DNA from: Gemmatimonadaceae bacterium
GTDB taxonomy: Bacteria; Gemmatimonadota; Gemmatimonadetes; Gemmatimonadales; Gemmatimonadaceae
Assembly: GCA_024710705.1 (NCBI GenBank)
Contig: JANJUF010000035.1
Coordinates: forward strand, 1-54,627
Length of the DNA stretch: 54,627 nt
Direction: 5' to 3'
Below the pieces are notes generated by a model that was given only the letters and a program-made list of their open reading frames with translations, made no database searches and was not told the origin of the DNA. Both the position numbers and the translations under genes were made by a program. Every line of letters starts with the position of its first letter. Position 1 is the stretch's first letter. Below, piece after piece: positions 6,782 to 54,296 of the stretch.

Positions 6782-7623
6782 TGGCCGCCCACGAGGAGGA
6801 AGAAGGGGGCGTCGCTGCTGGTGAGGCGAAGTCCGGGGTGGGCACGGTTGCCGGCCCGCGGCAGGCGCCGTTGGCGGCGCCGCTGGTGGAGTACCTGCTG
6901 CGCCTCGGCGATGACCGCCTGATCCTCGGCCACCGGATGTCGGAATGGACCGGCCATGGGCCGATCCTCGAAGAGGACATCGCCACCGCCAACATCGCGC
7001 TGGACCTCATCGGCCAGGCGGCGCAGCTGCTCAAGCTGGCCGGCGAGGTCGAAGGAAAGGGACGCACGGAAGACACGCTCGCCTACTTTCGCGATGGCGT
7101 GCAGTTCCGGAACTGCCTGCTGGTGGAACTGCCCAAGGGTGACTTCGGCGATACGATGGTCCGCCAGTTCCTCTTCGACGCGCACAGCGTGCTGTTGTGG
7201 GAAGCGCTCGCGGGCTGTGGTCACGCAGGGATCGCGGGCATCGCAGCGAAGGCGTTGAAGGAGGACAAGTACCATCTCCGCCACTCGAGCGAGTGGGTGG
7301 TGCGCCTGGGCGACGGCACCGAGGAGAGCCGCGCGCGCGTGCAGCGTTCGCTGGACCGACTCTGGAAGTACACGGCCGAGCTCTTTGCCGCCGACGAGAT
7401 TGACGACGCCGTGGCGGCACTCGGTGTGCGCGTGGATGCGGCGGGACTCAGGGCACGCTGGGACGCGATGGTGAATGAGGTGCTCGCCCGCGCGACGCTC
7501 ACGCGCCCCGCCGAAGGTGCCGCCCAGCGCGGCGGGCGCCGCGGGCGCCACACCGAGCACCTCGGGCACCTGCTGGCCACGATGCAGAGCGTGGCCCGCG
7601 CCCACCCCGGCGCCACCTGGTGA
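6781..7623 (+). CDS. paaC: phenylacetyl-CoA epoxidase structural subunit PaaC
   Basis: A 280-residue diiron-like subunit that pairs with PaaA. After a variable N-terminus of about 28 residues comes LVEYLLRLGDDRLILGHRMSEW, then GPILEEDIATANIALDLIGQA, FRNCLLVELPKGDFGDTMVRQFLFD and a HLRHSSEWVVRLGDGTEESRARVQ segment, all hallmarks of PaaC. The EEDIA/LKEDKYHLRH helices correspond to the degenerate metal-binding helices. The acidic, low-complexity N-terminus (AAHEEEEGGVAAGEAKSG) is longer than usual; a later start is conceivable, but the TGATG coupling supports this one. The 3' end overlaps the GTG start of paaD by four bases. Confidence 0.95.
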   Translation: MAAHEEEEGGVAAGEAKSGVGTVAGPRQAPLAAPLVEYLLRLGDDRLILGHRMSEWTGHGPILEEDIATANIALDLIGQAAQLLKLAGEVEGKGRTEDTLAYFRDGVQFRNCLLVELPKGDFGDTMVRQFLFDAHSVLLWEALAGCGHAGIAGIAAKALKEDKYHLRHSSEWVVRLGDGTEESRARVQRSLDRLWKYTAELFAADEIDDAVAALGVRVDAAGLRARWDAMVNEVLARATLTRPAEGAAQRGGRRGRHTEHLGHLLATMQSVARAHPGATW

Positions 7624-8111
7624 AGACGCGCGAGGAGCTCTTCGCGATCCTCGACACCGTCCCCGATCCGGAAGTGCCGGCGATCTCGGTGGTGGAGCTC
7701 GGGATCGTGCGTGATGCCTCGCAGCGCGCCGACGGCACCGTTGAGGTGACGATCACGCCCACCTACAGCGGCTGTCCGGCGATGTTCGAGATCGAGAAGG
7801 ATGTGCGCAGCGCCCTCGAGGCCGCCGGCGCCAGCGCCGTGGAGGTGCACACCGTGCTCTCGCCCGCCTGGACCACCGACTGGATCCCGGAGTCGGCGCG
7901 CGAGAAGCTGAGGAAGTACGGCATCGCCCCGCCGGGCCGCGCCGACGACGGCGGACTCGTCACGCTCGTGCGTGCCAAGCCGCCGGTGCAATGCCCCTGG
8001 TGCGGCTCACGGAACACGACGCTCAAGAGCGAGTTCGGCTCGACGGCCTGCAAGGCGATCCACGTGTGCAACGAGTGCCGGCAGCCGTTTGATGAGTTCA
8101 AAGCGATATAG
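7620..8111 (+). CDS. paaD: phenylacetate degradation maturation protein PaaD
   Basis: A 163-residue MIP18/DUF59-family protein needed for PaaABCE activity, probably in Fe-S cluster handling for the reductase. The N-terminal domain has VPDPEVPAISVVELGIVRD and ITPTYSGCPAMFEIEKDV, the latter with the conserved cysteine. The C-terminus has the zinc-ribbon-like CPWC...CNEC motif followed by FDEF, as in other PaaD proteins. The GTG start overlaps the paaC stop (GTGA). paaE, which usually follows, is absent: the next gene is convergent, and a family A repeat begins 8 bases after the stop. Confidence 0.94.
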   Translation: MKTREELFAILDTVPDPEVPAISVVELGIVRDASQRADGTVEVTITPTYSGCPAMFEIEKDVRSALEAAGASAVEVHTVLSPAWTTDWIPESAREKLRKYGIAPPGRADDGGLVTLVRAKPPVQCPWCGSRNTTLKSEFGSTACKAIHVCNECRQPFDEFKAI

Positions 8112-8118
8112 AGAACTT

Positions 8119-8223
8119 GGACGGAAGACGGTAGACGGAAGGCACCAGCAACGAAAACGGCGATACGGGACCCCCGCATCGCCGTTGTCGTTGTCCATTC
8201 CTTCCGTCTTCCGTCTTCCGTCC
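8119..8223. repeat. family A palindromic repeat, copy 1
   Basis: Outer arms of 24 bases (8119-8142 and 8200-8223) made of three GACGGAA-type heptads pair with one mismatch. Inside, 8150-8164 and 8178-8192 form a second stem of 15 bp, also with one mismatch. The element fills the gap between the convergent paaD and MATE genes to within 8 bases on each side, so it probably also ends transcription from both. Confidence 0.85.
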
Positions 8224-8231
8224 CAAACCTT

Positions 8232-9656
8232 CTATACGATTCTCCCCTTCCACGTCCCGCGCTTGAACAGAATCGCACTCACTGTCGCCAGCGCGGTATA
8301 CGCGATCGGCACCGCAATGAACACGCCCTTCTCTCCCAACGCCGTGTAGCGCGCCAGCGCCCACGCCAGCGGGATCTGCAGCGCCCAGAAGACCCAGAAA
8401 TTGATCCAGCTCGGGGTCCTCGTGTCGCCGGCTCCGTTGAACGACTGCTCGAGCACCATGCCCAGCGCATAGAGCGGGAAGCCTACCGACATCGCCCGCA
8501 ACCCAAACACGCCGGTGGCGTGCACGGCGGCGTCCTGGGTGAACCACCCCACGATCGTCGGCGCAAAGAACAGGAACGCGATGCCGGTGAGACCGAGCAC
8601 GATCATGTTCAGGCGCGCGGCCGTCCACACCGACTGCTCGGCCCGATCGGGATTCTCGGCGCCGAGGGCTTGGCCCACCATCGTTGCCGCCGCCGCACCC
8701 ACGCCATAGGCTGGCATCAACGCGAACAGCAGGATTCGGATGGCGATGGTGTAGCCGGCCATCGCATTCGCCCCGAAAATCGCCATGATGCGCACCAAGC
8801 CGATCCAGCTCATGGAGCTGAGCGCCACCTGGAAGGTGCCCCAGCCGGAGAGCTTGGCGATGCTGATCATCGTCTTCGGTTCGAGCCCGACGTGGTGCCT
8901 GTGGACGTGCAGCTTGCCCTTGCCGTTGCCGATGTGCCAGAGCGCCCAGCCGAAGCCGATCGCTCGGCCGATGGCCGTCGCCCACGCGGCACCGACCACA
9001 CCGAGTTCGGGGAAGGGACCGATGCCGAAAAGCAGCAAGGGGTCGAGCACTATGTTGATGGCGTTGCCCAGCACGAGCACGCGCATGGCGACGGCGGCAT
9101 CGCCCGTGCCGCGGAAGGCGGCGTTGATCAGGAAGAGCAGGAAGACGGCGCTGTTGGCCCCCAACGACACGCGCGCGTAGCCCGTGCCGACAGCCAAGAC
9201 GTCGGCGTCGGCGCCCATCAGCGTGAGCAGCTGCGGCGCGAAGATCGCGCCGATGACGCCGAGCAGCGCCGAGAGCGTGAGGCCGAGGAGGAGGGATTGC
9301 ACCGCCGCTCGGGCGGCGCCATCGGGATCCTTCTCACCGATGCGGCGGGCCACGGTGGCCGTGACGCCGATGCTGAGCCCCATGGCGACCGTGTAGATCA
9401 CGATCATCAGCGACTCGGTGAGTCCCACGGTGGCGACGGCGGCCGGGCCGAGTCGGCCGACGAAGAAGATGTCCACCACCGCGAACACGCTCTCCATCGA
9501 CATCTCGATCACCATCGGGATGGCGAGGAGGAAGATGGCGCGCCCGATGGGGCCTTGGGTGTAGTCGTGCTCGCTGCCGCGGATGGCGTCGCGGATGTCG
9601 CGCCAGACGCTGCCGGGCGTGGTGGCGTGTTGCTGGAGTTCGGTCGAGTTATGCAC
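8232..9656 (-). CDS. MATE-family multidrug efflux transporter
   Basis: A 474-residue integral membrane protein with about twelve hydrophobic segments arranged as two homologous six-helix halves. The first half starts with IGRAIFLLAIPMVIEMSMES and FFVGRLGPAAVATVGLTES, the second with IAKLSGWGTFQVALSSMSWIG. GLEPK...SIAKLSGWGTFQ and the AFRGTGD and SFNGAGDTRTPSWINF loops are typical of MATE antiporters, which export cationic or aromatic compounds with H+ or Na+. It sits inside the phenylacetate region but is oriented opposite to paaD, and nothing ties it to a specific substrate. AGGA lies about 10 bases before the ATG. A hairpin-rich leader precedes it. Confidence 0.93.
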   Translation of the reverse strand: MHNSTELQQHATTPGSVWRDIRDAIRGSEHDYTQGPIGRAIFLLAIPMVIEMSMESVFAVVDIFFVGRLGPAAVATVGLTESLMIVIYTVAMGLSIGVTATVARRIGEKDPDGAARAAVQSLLLGLTLSALLGVIGAIFAPQLLTLMGADADVLAVGTGYARVSLGANSAVFLLFLINAAFRGTGDAAVAMRVLVLGNAINIVLDPLLLFGIGPFPELGVVGAAWATAIGRAIGFGWALWHIGNGKGKLHVHRHHVGLEPKTMISIAKLSGWGTFQVALSSMSWIGLVRIMAIFGANAMAGYTIAIRILLFALMPAYGVGAAAATMVGQALGAENPDRAEQSVWTAARLNMIVLGLTGIAFLFFAPTIVGWFTQDAAVHATGVFGLRAMSVGFPLYALGMVLEQSFNGAGDTRTPSWINFWVFWALQIPLAWALARYTALGEKGVFIAVPIAYTALATVSAILFKRGTWKGRIV

Positions 9657-48414: not shown

Positions 48415-48459
48415 CAGCCGGGCGCCATTGAATAACCTTTCATCCGGATATACGGATGA
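48411..48459 (+). promoter_or_regulatory. promoter and palindromic operator of the ArsR-methyltransferase gene
   Basis: TTGACA (48411-48416), a 16-base spacer and TAACCT (48433-48438) form a promoter overlapping the previous stop codon. Directly after it lies the perfect 7-bp dyad TCATCCG-GATATA-CGGATGA (48440-48459), whose right arm contains the ATG (48456-48458). A protein bound there would block both the transcription start and the initiation codon region, as expected for ArsR autorepression. Confidence 0.65.
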
Positions 48460-49394
48460 AGCGCACCCCCCTCTTCGACCGGTTGTCGGCCCTGGCCGAC
48501 CCGACCCGCTCGCGCTGCCTCCTGTTGCTGGAGCGGCACGAGCTGACGGTGTCGGAACTGCGTGCGGTGCTCCAGCTGCCGCAATCCACTGTGAGCCGGC
48601 ACCTGAAGGTGCTGACGGATGCCGGCTGGCTCACCGCCCGCGAGGACGGGACGAGCAATCGGTATCGGCTGGACCTGAAGACGCTGGACGCGGCGGGGCG
48701 CAAGCTCTGGGGTTCGGTACGCGAGGAAGCGGAGGGGTTGTCCGCGGCGGCTCGCGACGCGCAACGGGTGAAAGGCGTCCTCGCCGAGCGCCACACGCGC
48801 TCGCAGCAGTTCTTCGCGAGTTCGGCGGCGCAGTGGGACAAGGTGCGGGCCGAGCTCTTCGGGGCGCGCACCGAGCTCTTCGCCCTCGTGGGCCTGCTGG
48901 GCGCCGACCAGGTGGTCGGCGACCTCGGCTGCGGCACGGGGCAGCTGTCGGAAGTGATATCGCCGTTCGTGTCACGCGTGATCGCGGTGGACGAGTCGGC
49001 GGCGATGTTGAAGGCGGCCAAGGCGCGGTTGGCGCCGCTCGAGAACGTCGAGTTGCGCGCCGGTCGCATCGAGGAGTTGCCGATCGAGGATGGCAGGCTG
49101 GACGTGGCGATCCTCTCGTTGGTGTTGCACTACGTGGCGGAGCCGGCGCAGGTCTTGGCAGGCATCCGTCGCACGCTCAAGCGAGGGGGCAAGCTGCTCC
49201 TCGTGGACATGCTCCCGCACGACCGCGCCGAATACCGCCAGACGATGGGCCATGTGTGGTTGGGATTCGATGCGGAGCAGTTGGAGCAGTGGGGGAAGCT
49301 CGCCGGGTTCACCGGCGTGCGGACCCATGGGTTGCCGTCGGGGCCCAAGATGAGTGGGCCATCACTCTTTACTGCGGTGTTTGCGACGACTTGA
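48456..49394 (+). CDS. ArsR-family regulator fused to a SAM methyltransferase
   Basis: A 312-residue two-domain protein. Residues 1-75 are a winged helix of the ArsR type: LSALADPTRSRCLLLLERHEL, then LQLPQSTVSRHLKVLTDAGWL and the wing REDGTSNRYRL. Residues 125-312 are a class I methyltransferase fold: VVGDLGCGTGQLSEVISPFV, VIAVDESAAMLKAAKARL and LSLVLHYVAEPAQVLAGIRRTL. No metal-binding cysteines of classic ArsR sensors are present. In many bacteria such fusions lie next to ahcY or methionine-cycle genes and are thought to sense SAM or SAH through the methyltransferase domain; here ahcY follows 114 bases later. The start overlaps its own palindromic operator. Confidence 0.9.
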   Translation: MKRTPLFDRLSALADPTRSRCLLLLERHELTVSELRAVLQLPQSTVSRHLKVLTDAGWLTAREDGTSNRYRLDLKTLDAAGRKLWGSVREEAEGLSAAARDAQRVKGVLAERHTRSQQFFASSAAQWDKVRAELFGARTELFALVGLLGADQVVGDLGCGTGQLSEVISPFVSRVIAVDESAAMLKAAKARLAPLENVELRAGRIEELPIEDGRLDVAILSLVLHYVAEPAQVLAGIRRTLKRGGKLLLVDMLPHDRAEYRQTMGHVWLGFDAEQLEQWGKLAGFTGVRTHGLPSGPKMSGPSLFTAVFATT

Positions 49395-49494
49395 GACGGA
49401 AGACGGAAGACGGAAGGACCTTCGTTTCGGTTCCGCCCGCACTCCCGGACTGCGTCTCGCTCTCGCCATTTCCTTCCGTCTTCCGTCTTCCCTC
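49395..49494. repeat. family A palindromic repeat, copy 2
   Basis: Arms of 23 bases (49395-49417 and 49472-49494), three GACGGAA heptads against their complement with one mismatch, enclose a 54-base centre with no clear second stem. The left arm starts directly after the regulator's stop codon, and the right arm ends 14 bases before the ahcY ATG. Confidence 0.85.
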
Positions 49495-49508
49495 TTTCCA
49501 ATCTTCCT

Positions 49509-50999
49509 ATGACTGCCATCGCCCCGACCCTCCATCCCTTCGACGCCGTGAAGTCCACCGGCCGGCCGCCCTTCAAGGTCGCCGACATCTCGCTGGCCAA
49601 CTGGGGCCGTCAGGAAATCCGCCTCGCCGAGTACGAGATGCCGGGCCTGATGGCGCTGCGCGCCGAGTACAAGGGGAAGAAGCCCCTCGCCGGCGCCCGC
49701 ATCATGGGCTCGCTGCACATGACCATCCAGACGGCGGTGCTCATCGAGACGCTGACCGAACTCGGCGCCGACGTGCGCTGGGTGAGCTGCAACATCTTCT
49801 CCACGCAGGATCACGCCGCGGCCGCGGTGGCCGTGGGCAAGGATGGCTCGGTGGAGCAGCCGCGCGGCACGCCGGTGTTCGCGTGGAAGGGCGAAACGCT
49901 CGAGGAGTACTGGTGGTGCACCGAGCAGGCGCTGATGTGGCCCGACGGCCAGGGCCCCAATCTCATCCTCGATGACGGTGGCGACGCCACGATGCTCGTG
50001 CACAAGGGCACCGAGTACGAGGCCGCGGGCGCCGTGCCGGCGTTCGATGCCAAGAACGAGCCCGAGGAGTGGGGCGTGATCCTCGAGCTGCTCCGCAAGA
50101 CGATCAAGGAAGACCCGAAGCGCTGGACGAATGTCGGCAAGGCCATCCGCGGCGTGTCCGAGGAGACCACCACCGGCGTGCACCGGCTCTATGAGATGAT
50201 GCAGGCTGGCAAGCTGCTCTTCCCGGCCATCAACGTGAACGATGCCGTGACCAAGTCGAAGTTCGACAATCTCTACGGCTGCCGGCACTCGCTCACCGAC
50301 GGCATCCTCCGCGCGTCGGACGTGATGCTGGCCGGCAAGGTCGCCGTGGTCATGGGCTACGGCGACGTGGGCAAAGGCTCGGCACAGTCGCTGCGGGCGC
50401 AGGGCGCGCGCGTCGTGATCACCGAGGTGGACCCCATCTGCGCCCTGCAGGCGGCGATGGAAGGCTACCAGGTCACCACGCTCGACGAGGTCGTGAGCAC
50501 CGCCGACGTGTTCATTACCGCCACCGGCAACGCCGACATCATCACGGTGGAGCACATGGCGAAGATGAAGGACAAGGCGATCGTCGGGAACATCGGCCAC
50601 TTCGACAACGAGATCGACATGGCCGGCCTCAAGAACGTGAAGGGCATCAAGCGCAACCAGATCAAGCCGCAGTTCGACGAGTGGATCTTCCCCGATGGCC
50701 ACTCGGTGCTCATCCTGGCCGAAGGCCGCCTGCTCAACCTCGGCTGCGCCACCGGCCATCCGTCCTTCGTGATGTCGGCGTCGTTCACCAACCAGGTGAT
50801 GGCGCAGATCGAGCTGCACACGAACAACAGCAAGTACGAGAAGAAGGTGTACACGCTGCCGAAGCACCTCGATGAGAAGGTGGCGCGCCTGCACCTCGAC
50901 AAGCTGGGCGTGAAGCTGACGAAGCTGACGCCGAAGCAGGCGGCGTACATTGGGGTGCCGGTGGATGGGCCGTACAAGCCGGACCATTACAGGTACTAG
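49509..50999 (+). CDS. ahcY: S-adenosylhomocysteine hydrolase
   Basis: A 496-residue enzyme splitting SAH into adenosine and homocysteine, which relieves product inhibition of methyltransferases. The N-terminal substrate part has [16 protein letters not shown] and [13 protein letters not shown]. It carries the roughly 40-residue insertion ([21 protein letters not shown]) of the long bacterial/plant-type enzymes. NAD binding is [20 protein letters not shown], and catalytic segments include [18 protein letters not shown] and [12 protein letters not shown]. The C-terminus ends KPDHYRY, the motif reaching into the neighbouring NAD site. The start has a wholly pyrimidine upstream region (the right arm of repeat A2) and no Shine-Dalgarno sequence. 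The stop codon lies inside the next repeat. Confidence 0.98.
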
Positions 51000-51086
51000 A
51001 CGGAAGACGGAAGACGGAAGGTACGGGCGGAGTGGCCAGTGCGGCTGCTCCGCCCGTTCTTCCGTCTTCCGTCTTCCGTCTTCCGT
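50999..51086. repeat. family A palindromic repeat, copy 3
   Basis: The left arm (50999-51021, three heptads) begins on the last base of the ahcY stop codon. The right arm (51059-51086) has four CTTCCGT heptads. A perfect 10-bp inner stem (51023-51032 with 51048-51057) makes the whole element one long hairpin. It ends 1 base before the stop of the convergent YVTN gene and should act as a two-way terminator. Confidence 0.88.
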
Positions 51087-51087
51087 C

Positions 51088-52281
51088 TTACTTCTGCACC
51101 TCGATCCCGCCCGCCTGCTGCCCGACTTCCACCGTCGCCACCACGCGCAGCGCCTCGAGGTCAATGATGTCCACCGTGGCCTTTTCGGAGCCGACGCCCT
51201 CATTGGACACGAAGGCGTAGCGGTCGTCGGCGGTGATGGCGACGCCGTGGACCACGCGCCGTGACGTGCGGATGCGCGCCATCTCTCTCCCCGTCGCGGC
51301 GTCCCACACCGACACGGATTGGTCGCGCTTGTTGGTGGCGACGAGCAGGCGGCCGTCGCTGGTGACCGCGAGGTTGTAGATGCCGTTGCCAGCGGGGATT
51401 CGGCGGGTCACGCGCCACTCGGCCACGTCCACCTCCACCAGTTCGCTGGACTTGTTGCAGGCGATCCAGACCTTCGCGCCATCCGGCGAGGGTTGGGCCC
51501 AGGTGGGCGAGCAGCTCACATCGCCCGGCGCCGGCGGCTCCATGCCGTGTCCGCCCATGTCGTGGCCGCCGTGGTCGGCGCCGCTGGCCACCCGCCGCGG
51601 CGGGGCGCCGGCCATCCCACGTTCCTTTCCCTGCGTGAGGAACAAATGGCGCGCCACGCTGAAGCCCCGCGTGTCAATCTCCACGAGCATCTCGTCCATC
51701 ATGCACGCCGAGTAATGGCGCGTGCCGGTGGCATTGAGGCGTGAGCCGTGCGGCATGGTGCAGGTGGGGATGCGCGCCACCTCGAGCATGGCACTCGTCT
51801 CCACCACCGACACGCTCGACGTCTCCATCTCGCCGTGCAGGTTGAAGTTCACCACCCAGGCGAAGTAGCCGTCGGGGCTCACCTGCACGGTGGCCGGGAA
51901 CTGGCCGAGGGTGGCGCGGCCCACCGGCACGTCATCGGCGCTGCGGAACTTCCACAGCGAGCCCCCCGGCAAGCCGTGGGCGGTGCTCACGAAGTAATGC
52001 TGGCCGTCCGGCGAGAGGGCCACGCCGTGCGGGCCGTCGGGGTCGATCAACGACATGCCCACCGGCGCCACCTTCACCACCCGCGCGCCGGCGGAGTCGA
52101 ACACGATGCGGGCGATTTCGTCCACCGACTCGGAGACGACGATGGCGGCGTAGCTCCGCGGCGGCGCGGAGGGCGGATCAGGCGCGAGCGCGTCGGCGTC
52201 ACCGGCGCTGGCGCGGCACCCGCCCACGAGCACGAGAGCCGCGAAGGCGGCGGCAAGGCCGCCGCCACGTCGCCGCGTCAT
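51088..52281 (-). CDS. YVTN-type beta-propeller lipoprotein
   Basis: A 397-residue lipoprotein (signal AAAFAALVLVGGCRAS). Six to seven propeller blades of the YVTN/lactonase type are visible from repeated units such as PHGVALSPDGQHYFVSTAHG, ATVQVSPDGYFAWVVNFN and YNLAVTSDGRLLVATNKRDQ. A histidine-rich loop (SGADHGGHDMGGHGMEPP) is inserted between blades and might bind metal. Such proteins are usually surface or periplasmic binding proteins or subunits of secreted dehydrogenases; nothing here shows catalysis. The ATG at 52281 overlaps the stop of the LVIVD gene by four bases, so the pair is co-translated. The frame upstream of 52281 is not supported. Confidence 0.85.
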   Translation of the reverse strand: MTRRRGGGLAAAFAALVLVGGCRASAGDADALAPDPPSAPPRSYAAIVVSESVDEIARIVFDSAGARVVKVAPVGMSLIDPDGPHGVALSPDGQHYFVSTAHGLPGGSLWKFRSADDVPVGRATLGQFPATVQVSPDGYFAWVVNFNLHGEMETSSVSVVETSAMLEVARIPTCTMPHGSRLNATGTRHYSACMMDEMLVEIDTRGFSVARHLFLTQGKERGMAGAPPRRVASGADHGGHDMGGHGMEPPAPGDVSCSPTWAQPSPDGAKVWIACNKSSELVEVDVAEWRVTRRIPAGNGIYNLAVTSDGRLLVATNKRDQSVSVWDAATGREMARIRTSRRVVHGVAITADDRYAFVSNEGVGSEKATVDIIDLEALRVVATVEVGQQAGGIEVQK

Positions 52282-54296
52282 GGAACCACGCCCGCCTTGG
52301 GCTCGATCCGCACGATCCACAATCCGTTGTTCATGTCATTCACGTAGGCCAGGCCGTCGCGCACCACTACGCCCCAGGTCATGGCCGTATTGCTGGCGCG
52401 CCCGTCCATGTCGGCGGTGTTCAGGTGGCCGATCTCACGCCCCTGCGCGCGGAGGTCTCCGCGCAGCTCGCCCGACACCTCGAATACGCGGAAGCCGGCG
52501 TTGTACGCGCCCATGTACAGCGAGTCGCCCGCCACCCACACGTTGTGCACGCCGCCGAACTCCGGCTCGTAGTACGCCACCGAGCGCGGCCGTTCGATGT
52601 CCGACACGTCAATGACCTGCAGTCGACCGTAGGCGCGCCCCGCTGCGGCGTCCTTCGCGCCGCGCACGCCGCTGGCCGGGAACACCTCGTCGGCAATGAA
52701 CACGTAGTTCCGGTGGCGCCAGGCGGTATGCGTGCCGCGGATGAAGCCCTCGCCGCCGCTGGCGGCCACGTCGCGGTACAGCGCATTGAGATCGTACTTG
52801 TACTGCGAGACCATCACTGGCCGGGACGGCGTGCCGCCCTTGATGCCGTTGCCCACGTCGAGGATCACGAGGCCGTCGTTCCACCACGAGCCGTAGAGCA
52901 GGCCGTCCTGGACGTCAATGTCGTGCAGCGTGCGGCCGGCGTCGGGACGGTTCTCCGTCTTCCACTGCGCCACCTCGCGCGGCTTCGCCGGGTCGTCAAT
53001 GTTGAGCACGTGCAGCGCACCGGTGCCGTCGTTGGTGAGGAACACGTGCTGGCCGTAGCGTGGATCCTTATAGATGAATGTGGAATGCACCCCGGCACTG
53101 ACGCCCTCGGTGAACTCGGAGATCACCTTGGGATGGCGCGGGTCCTCCAGCGAGGCGAACACCACGCCGTTGCGGCGGTCGGCCGCGCCCTCGCGCGTGA
53201 ACACGAGGTACTTGCCGTCGGGCGTGGTCATCACGTCGTTCACGCGGCGCGTGTTGGCGATGATCGAGTCGGTGACGAACGGCGCCGCCGGATTGGAGAT
53301 GTCAATCGTGTACAGCACGTCGCCACCGCCACCCGACCCGAGGTACGCCACCTCCCCGTTCGGATGCAGCCAGACCTCTTCGGTGTTGAAGCGCGTGCGC
53401 GGGAGGCGCCCCACCACGCTGAGCGGGCGCCGCACGTCGCGCGGCGCCAGCGTCACGACGCTCTCGGCGGTGCGATTCCCCAGGGACGCGGTCACGGTGT
53501 AGGTGCCGGCGTCGTAGCCCACGAACGCCCCGTCGGCGTCAATCATTCCCTGGCCGGGGCTGATGCTCCACACCGGCGTGAGCCCGGCGATGTCGCGGCC
53601 GGCGGCGTCCTTGGCCACGGCCTTGAAACGGATCACGTCGCCCGTGCGGGCGTCGGTGACGCCAGGCTCCACGGCGAAGGACTCGAGTGCGGCATTCAGC
53701 ACCTGCACCTCGAGTGCCTGCAGCACCGTGCCCACCCGCGCCGTGAGTGTGGCCCGACCGGCGCCGACGGCCGTCACCATGCCCACCTCGTTCACCGAGG
53801 CGACGCGGGTGTTCGAGGAGCTCCAGACCACGCGATCGTCGCGGATGTCCCCGATCGCCGACCGTACCTCGGCGCTCAGGCGGATGCGCTGACCTGGCAC
53901 CAGCCGCTGGACCGCCGGAAGGATGGCGATGCGCGCCGCCGGACCCGGAACCATGCGGACCTCGAAGCGCTCGATCGTCGGCGGCTCGTTGGGCAGGATC
54001 GCGACGACGGCCGCCGGCAGCGTGCCAGTGGACCCTGACGTCACGAGACCGTCCTGCGAGACGCTGCCCTCGAAGCGCGCGCCCGTCTGCGTCCAGCGGA
54101 ACTGCACGCCGGGGATCACGCGGTCGTCGGCATCGCGGGCTTCGGCCTTCAGGCGCAGCGTGTCGCCAGCCGTGACCACCTTCTGCACGGGGGTGATGAC
54201 GATGCGTGCGATGCGCGAAGGCGTGGTGGTGGGGGCCGCCTGGGCCTCCAAGAGCAGAGGGACCGCGAGCGCGGCCAGGGTCAGGGCACGAAGCAT
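52278..54296 (-). CDS. exported Ig-like/LVIVD-repeat surface protein
   Basis: A 672-residue secreted protein. After the signal peptide (LTLAALAVPLLLEAQA) come three Ig-like BIG2-type domains (about 28-310). Examples are VQKVVTAGDTLRLKAEARDADDR, VQRLVPGQRIRLSAEV and WSSSNTRVASVNEVGMVTAVG. From about residue 330 to 672 an LVIVD-type propeller has repeats such as TIDISNPAAPFVTDSIIANT, HVLNIDDPAKPREVAQW and VIDVSDIERPRSVAYYEPEF. It is probably an outer-membrane-linked adhesin or scaffold. It is the first gene of the pair with the YVTN lipoprotein. The start at 54296 fits the signal peptide; the frame upstream is non-coding. Confidence 0.85.
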   Translation of the reverse strand: MLRALTLAALAVPLLLEAQAAPTTTPSRIARIVITPVQKVVTAGDTLRLKAEARDADDRVIPGVQFRWTQTGARFEGSVSQDGLVTSGSTGTLPAAVVAILPNEPPTIERFEVRMVPGPAARIAILPAVQRLVPGQRIRLSAEVRSAIGDIRDDRVVWSSSNTRVASVNEVGMVTAVGAGRATLTARVGTVLQALEVQVLNAALESFAVEPGVTDARTGDVIRFKAVAKDAAGRDIAGLTPVWSISPGQGMIDADGAFVGYDAGTYTVTASLGNRTAESVVTLAPRDVRRPLSVVGRLPRTRFNTEEVWLHPNGEVAYLGSGGGGDVLYTIDISNPAAPFVTDSIIANTRRVNDVMTTPDGKYLVFTREGAADRRNGVVFASLEDPRHPKVISEFTEGVSAGVHSTFIYKDPRYGQHVFLTNDGTGALHVLNIDDPAKPREVAQWKTENRPDAGRTLHDIDVQDGLLYGSWWNDGLVILDVGNGIKGGTPSRPVMVSQYKYDLNALYRDVAASGGEGFIRGTHTAWRHRNYVFIADEVFPASGVRGAKDAAAGRAYGRLQVIDVSDIERPRSVAYYEPEFGGVHNVWVAGDSLYMGAYNAGFRVFEVSGELRGDLRAQGREIGHLNTADMDGRASNTAMTWGVVVRDGLAYVNDMNNGLWIVRIEPKAGVVP

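Follow-up and report, generated by a model that had tools for sequence, protein, structure and literature searches.

Heptad palindromes beside ahcY in a Gemmatimonadaceae genome: probable short forms of hairpin elements that carry S23p genes

What are the palindromes on either side of the ahcY gene in a Gemmatimonadaceae genome, and to what kind of element do they belong? The whole stretch of DNA that we analyzed (54,627 nt; here called the window) contains three of them, at 8120-8222, 49395-49494 and 50999-51087, and in each, tandem copies of GACGGAA face their own complement. The first occupies a convergent junction between genes at 7620-8111 (plus strand) and 8232-9656 (minus strand). Its left arm (8120-8140, plus strand) reads GACGGAA GACGGTA GACGGAA, with GACGGTA as the middle unit; its centre (8141-8201) contains an inner GC-rich stem, and its right arm (8202-8222, minus strand) has three units. 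The left arm of copy 2 (49395-49415, plus strand; three units) begins immediately after the TGA (49392-49394) of the gene at 48456-49394. Its centre spans 49416-49473, and its right arm (49474-49494, minus strand), with three units of which the outermost is imperfect (TTCCCTC), ends 14 bp before ahcY. The ahcY gene itself (TIGR00936; 49509-50999, plus strand) lies between copies 2 and 3. Copy 3 has a left arm of three units (50999-51019, plus strand), which uses the G of the ahcY TAG jointly with the gene, a centre (51020-51059) with an inner stem GGGCGGAG / CTCCGCCC, and a right arm of four units (51060-51087, minus strand) that abuts the stop of the minus-strand gene at 51088-52320. Read from that convergent gene, the far side of copy 3 is TAAGACGGAA. 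All three copies are located between protein genes rather than in 23S rRNA, and their outer edges lie at or very near the ends of genes. Their centres measure 40-61 bp, with no S23p-family ORF between the arms.

This layout agrees with the original prediction in most respects: copies 2 and 3 directly flank ahcY, the left arm of copy 3 begins on the ahcY stop codon (the G of TAG is at 50999), the three copies share one build fitted to gene ends, and the number of units varies between three and four. The span predicted for the ahcY region, 49395-51086, has the right start, but its true end is 51087. The prediction also described ahcY as bracketed. The gene is indeed flanked on both sides, but this is incidental, as it lies between two complete palindromes and not inside one.

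The repeats are far from chance expectation. Two GACGGAA units with at most two mismatches have 14 matches in the window, against a mean of 0.47 and a maximum of 3 in shuffled sequence, and the predicted RNA folds of the copies are each far stronger than those of shuffled sequence (z -13.6, -6.3 and -13.1). A known RNA family was ruled out for the palindromes, given that the window has no Rfam match at gathering thresholds. A role as terminators had also been suggested. However, we found no intrinsic terminator (a GC-rich stem followed by a T run) around copies 1-3, although the stems may have a different mode of action.

The source genome (G000; 3.0 Mb in 137 contigs, 87.6% complete) contains far more than three copies. 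The proposed genome-wide search for (GACGGAA)3, allowing at most two mismatches, gave 201 overlapping matches (91 + 110), and the backwards-motif control gave 0. To describe placement, we used a sample of 451 kb, consisting of 20 stretches plus the window. A simple codon model, which recovered the stop codon of 34 of the 36 conserved genes in the window, assigns 93% of this sample to coding sequence. Despite this coding density, 36 of the 38 arrays of at least two units are intergenic and only two overlap a called gene, in keeping with the expectation that arrays are not frequent inside genes. The 21 junctions with arrays are tandem (13) or convergent (8) and never divergent, as against 63 tandem, 15 convergent and 47 divergent among all gaps of at least 60 bp (Fisher p 2.7e-5, with array gaps counted from 40 bp up). 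Where arrays are paired, the purine-rich array comes first in 12/12 pairs, i.e. with one polarity; single arrays without a partner are also present. For most arrays (14/17 left arrays and 12/16 right arrays), the nearest gene is no more than 17 bp away.

The exact sequence is rare elsewhere. Of 119 genomes, 7 contain the exact 19-mer, its own genome included, and no other genome has more than six matches. The exact two-unit palindrome was found in three stretches (from an uncultured bacterium, a Saprospiraceae MAG and a Lentisphaerae MAG) of a species-level collection that may omit near relatives of the window. Among relatives, a strict palindrome detector yielded 23 period-7 palindromes in nine genomes (11 in G000 and none in G003 or G009); its control lags are not empty (0-4 per genome for lag 5, and 6 in G015 for lag 8), and coding sequence also raises the raw counts for periods that are multiples of 3. 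Because the strict detector misses degenerate arrays, a tolerant detector was used at ahcY. There, among 14 congeneric genomes including the source genome, 9 have period 7 upstream of the gene and 5 have it downstream. Control lags of 5, 8, 10 and 11 gave 0 in the same genomes, and lag 13 gave 3 downstream.

The units at this site differ between genomes: GACGGAA in G000, AGATGGG in G009, AGGTGTG in G003 and G007, and AGTCGTG in G015, with none in some genomes. In the heptad-free G012, an ordinary-looking stem follows ahcY, as judged by eye. Along the window, we compared six relatives. Heptads are present in 3 of the 8 comparisons made where G000 has an array at the junction, versus 2 of 113 where it has none (p 0.0018), and in most relatives the array is absent from such junctions. 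Given that the ahcY and ychF sites are old and common to relatives, recent jumping within the genus is not supported. The repeats hold their positions, and the sequence at those positions changes from one species to the next. The idea of one unit per species, a strict species dialect, is not supported: unit identity is 0.79 within and 0.60 between genomes when G000 is counted, but 0.63 versus 0.58, with 0.67 at the same site, when it is not. Two genomes of the same genus, G006 and G013 (96 and 100% complete), have 0 matches to the heptad motif; G006 has two S23p matches. The backwards motif is no null across relatives, as it has at least 100 matches in several and is probably catching other heptads. 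It exceeds 150 matches in each of G021, G032, G036, G057 and G058, which probably have other heptad families.

Genes for four-helix-bundle proteins are often found near such repeats. A search with the S23p/four-helix-bundle profile PF05635 gave three matches in G000 and at least one match in 121 of 148 genomes of the family. Two of the three G000 genes have GACGGAA arms. The third (L011, 1230-1900) lies in a much longer inverted repeat with a score of 80.5, whose units resemble GATGCGG and not GACGGAA. For the family, we took the 30 best-scoring S23p loci, one per genome, of which 27 could be evaluated. In 24 of these 27, the gene is enclosed by an inverted repeat scoring at least 17, with period 7 or 8 in 20. 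Displaced positions at the same loci gave 0/112, and random places gave 13/1215, three of them with such a period. The arm units include AGAGTTG, GACGGGC, AGCCGGA, AGTTGGG, GTGATCA, GCTATTG, GCCATCA, CAGGTAT and AGATGTG, and four loci (L161, L174, L181 and L182) have period-8 arms.

A scan of 1213 called genes that was blind to function found only six with such flanks: the S23p and GxxExxY genes of contig 120, ahcY and one further gene between two palindromes, and two others. The proteins have the NCBIfam names TIGR02436 and TIGR04256. The GxxExxY genes (PF13366) appear to define a sister class, with enclosure at 17 of 30 family loci (controls 1/112); their units resemble CACAGAGG and are 8 to 10 bases long. 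An inverted repeat with CACAGAGG-like units surrounds one such gene on contig 120 of the source genome (TIGR04256; L148, 4929-5303).

Heptad-motif counts correlate with S23p counts among 14 congeneric genomes (rho 0.58, p 0.03), although the motif represents a single group of units, which makes this a weak test. G010 and G008 have some motif matches and no S23p match; both counts are low, and the backwards control is equal or larger. Counting against the S23p link, G000 contains only three S23p genes and many arrays. The solved structure nearest to a congeneric S23p protein (L183) is 2gsc, XCC0516, which would be the Xanthomonas campestris S23p pentamer mentioned in the available part of PMC4990558.

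The ychF locus illustrates how genes and arms relate. In 15 of the 31 such loci that we examined (14 genomes, four genera), an S23p gene lies upstream of ychF in the opposite orientation, and the pyrophosphatase gene hppA adjoins it in 14 of these 15. Arms are detectable at 11 of the 15 loci and not at the other 4, with units such as GACGGAA, AGATGTG, GACTTGA, AGTTGTG, AGATGGG, AGGTGGG, GGCTGAA, GCTATTG and others. Given that the S23p gene is present with varied arm units, the gene stays while the arms change. In the source assembly, the hppA-S23p-ychF block occurs on two contigs (131, L009, and 49, L010) whose ychF proteins are 91% identical, so that a second strain or species is probably present in the assembly. 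One of these contigs has an AGTTGGG palindrome behind ychF, and the other has a GACGTGA/GACGGAA array there.

The association extends to other phyla. In Lentisphaerae and Saprospiraceae MAGs, all eight S23p matches above the family cut-off are enclosed (controls 0/28). Two of these eight have the units ACGGAAG/ACGGAAA and GACCGAA/GACGGAA, in genomes that also gave GACGGAA palindrome matches. Weak S23p matches in the three MAGs searched number six, and none of the five evaluable ones is enclosed. In cyanobacterial plasmids, we found 15 S23p matches, of which 13 were evaluated directly, H4 was evaluated via L309, and H6 was left out. Enclosure was seen at 6 of the 13 loci (controls 0/52). Because arms overlap gene ends, and so were missed by this first test, we drew the gene edges in by 60 bases, which gave 11 of 13, plus L309 and L310 (controls 1/59). 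By sequence comparison, S23p-family genes therefore lie inside such arms in all four groups sampled: this family, a Lentisphaerae MAG, a Saprospiraceae MAG and cyanobacterial plasmids.

Comparison of otherwise alike plasmids further shows that gene-bearing elements are present in some and absent from others at the same gene ends. At cas10/cmr3, an element is present in PCC 7003 and absent from PCC 7002; its octad arms score 14.5, below the threshold. Behind an integrase gene, one plasmid has an element and three do not. At cas6/cas4, one plasmid has an element, and another (L307) lacks the gene but still bears a short AATTACG array. Given that this array occurs without an S23p gene, causality may also run the other way. 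Arm-bearing S23p genes thus occupy both the cas10/cmr3 gap and the cas6/cas4 gap in cyanobacterial plasmids (L297 and L289). In one Nostoc strain, two junctions of an operon differ between plasmids pNsp_a and pNsp_c, each plasmid having the element at the junction that is empty in the other. In these comparisons, the left edge of an element coincides with a stop codon or is at most about 10 bases away from one, and the right edge is near the following start; the exception is the pNsp_c site, with some 35 additional bases. With regard to a possible target-site duplication, the filled and empty sites have a few edge bases in common (TTCTA; ATG), but arms and stop codons overlap.

At a TraM junction, one plasmid is empty, two have an element, and pNsp_c of ATCC 53789 has a palindrome of related repeats. 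This last interval is 260 bp long, with units that are similar but not identical to those in its relatives. It contains no S23p match, and the best tblastn hit (E 0.14) lies elsewhere. Although it is one case and from another phylum, this palindrome is the best evidence for descent of ORF-less forms from gene-bearing elements.

We think that the window palindromes probably belong, as short forms without an ORF, to a class of hairpin elements; in the coding form of this class, one S23p (four-helix-bundle, 23S_rRNA_IVP) gene lies between heptad arms. Their descent from S23p elements, like the mechanism, would follow by extrapolation from the comparisons above. The short form may arise by gene loss or be moved in trans. 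The arms may act as a hairpin in RNA or in single-stranded DNA, and placement behind stop codons could reflect selection or target choice. Fast turnover of unit number and sequence, through slippage combined with copying between the arms, would leave a site with its palindrome while the unit differs between species.

Slippage might, however, be most of the story. The original prediction suggested that arrays grow by slippage, and one could add that template switching copies the arms, while S23p elements merely land in or share the repeats. Unit numbers that differ between arms and copies make slippage plausible for unit number, and the sites kept while units change, the unpaired arrays and the gene-less array of L307 are all consistent with this account, as are the findings that 21 of 23 genomes lack a reverse transcriptase and that G000 lacks a Y1 transposase. 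Nevertheless, slippage alone does not explain why S23p genes are enclosed far above controls or why whole elements are present or absent at gene ends, and we regard it as a rather unlikely explanation overall.

Alternatively, the palindromes could be useful to the host as 3' structures, namely terminators or 3'-end protectors kept by selection, with the heptads as an elaboration. The absence of divergent junctions among the 21 with arrays, the strong RNA folds with their inner GC-rich stems and the stem seen by eye after ahcY in G012 fit such a role. Yet no terminator-like site occurs around the window copies, array junctions are array-free in most relatives, and selection would not place S23p genes inside; we therefore find this account improbable. 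An even more remote idea is that they are regulatory G-quadruplex repeats, as was proposed for GGGAATC and GGGGA(C/T)T in the available text of PMC4692102. The period, placement and inverted pairs are the same, but GACGGAA has only GG runs, and GACTTGA, AGATGTG and GCTATTG lack GGG.

The reading of the palindromes as members of an S23p-carrying class could be widened, although we do so tentatively and with slightly more doubt than belief. Heptad and octad palindromes across bacteria, including those of Nostoc and Xanthomonas, might be ORF-less populations of one hairpin class that settles at stop codons and has a coding form with S23p. Intervening sequences (IVSs) of rRNA with S23p would then be the same elements in 23S genes, and GxxExxY would belong to a sister class with units of 8-10 bases. 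The link between heptads and S23p could unite intergenic heptads of unknown origin, 23S rRNA IVSs with unexplained mobility and a four-helix protein, S23p, without known function. It also makes an old question testable, by supplying a gene for deletion and a repeat that can be counted. KTEDGRR-type peptides in annotations are explained as repeat read-through.

Several known systems resemble these repeats in part. Like REP and REPIN sequences with their RAYTs, they are short intergenic palindromes in many copies, but arms in the window class are tandem heptads and G000 has no Y1 transposase. An origin from RAYT or IS200-like elements was rejected on the basis of 0 matches to PF01797 in G000, which is 87.6% complete. 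Avd is a relative of S23p, which is the origin of the idea that a reverse transcriptase copies the arms, as in DGRs. We also rejected this idea, since PF00078 (RVT_1) is present in only 2 of 23 genomes (G007 and G201) and is absent from the heptad-bearing G000, G003, G005, G009, G011 and G015. MITEs, too, are short, gene-less inverted-repeat elements found beside fuller, gene-bearing ones. However, heptad elements have no known transposase, and their arm sequence differs between species at one site.

The tandem heptanucleotides of Calothrix are named STRR. Three of these are cited in PMC4692102, the available text of which describes the heptads GGGAATC in Xanthomonas and GGGGA(C/T)T in Nostoc as intergenic, in inverted pairs and biased to stop codons. 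These heptads lie on the sense strand at stop codons and are rare between divergent genes; convergent inverted pairs number 70 and 75 in two Xanthomonas genomes and are few in the Nostoc studied (PMC4692102). They thus share with the window class tandem seven-base units, intergenic location, stop codons, a scarcity at divergent junctions and inverted pairs, but differ in having G-tracts for quadruplexes. Therefore, the repeat kind itself is already in print, and the original statement of knowing no named class with this design is partly wrong. The tie to S23p hairpin elements does look new and is well supported. Although X. campestris was among the organisms studied, the accessible text of PMC4692102 includes neither 'S23' nor 'xcc0516'. 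In the accessible open-licence literature, we found no paper joining intergenic heptads with S23p, and the words 'heptameric' and 'S23p' occur together in PMC4990558.

That paper, in the part available, concerns the Coxiella 23S rRNA IVS, which is 428 nt long and has terminal inverted repeats and an S23p ORF. Two or three GACAGAT heptads, their number varying between strains, precede the ORF, and RNase III, which has a site at the first repeat, cuts the IVS out (PMC4990558). Unlike the window copies, which are ORF-less and lie between genes, this IVS is in 23S rRNA and is excised by RNase III. Regardless, it combines inverted repeats at its ends with tandem heptads and an enclosed S23p gene, as do the S23p hairpin elements.
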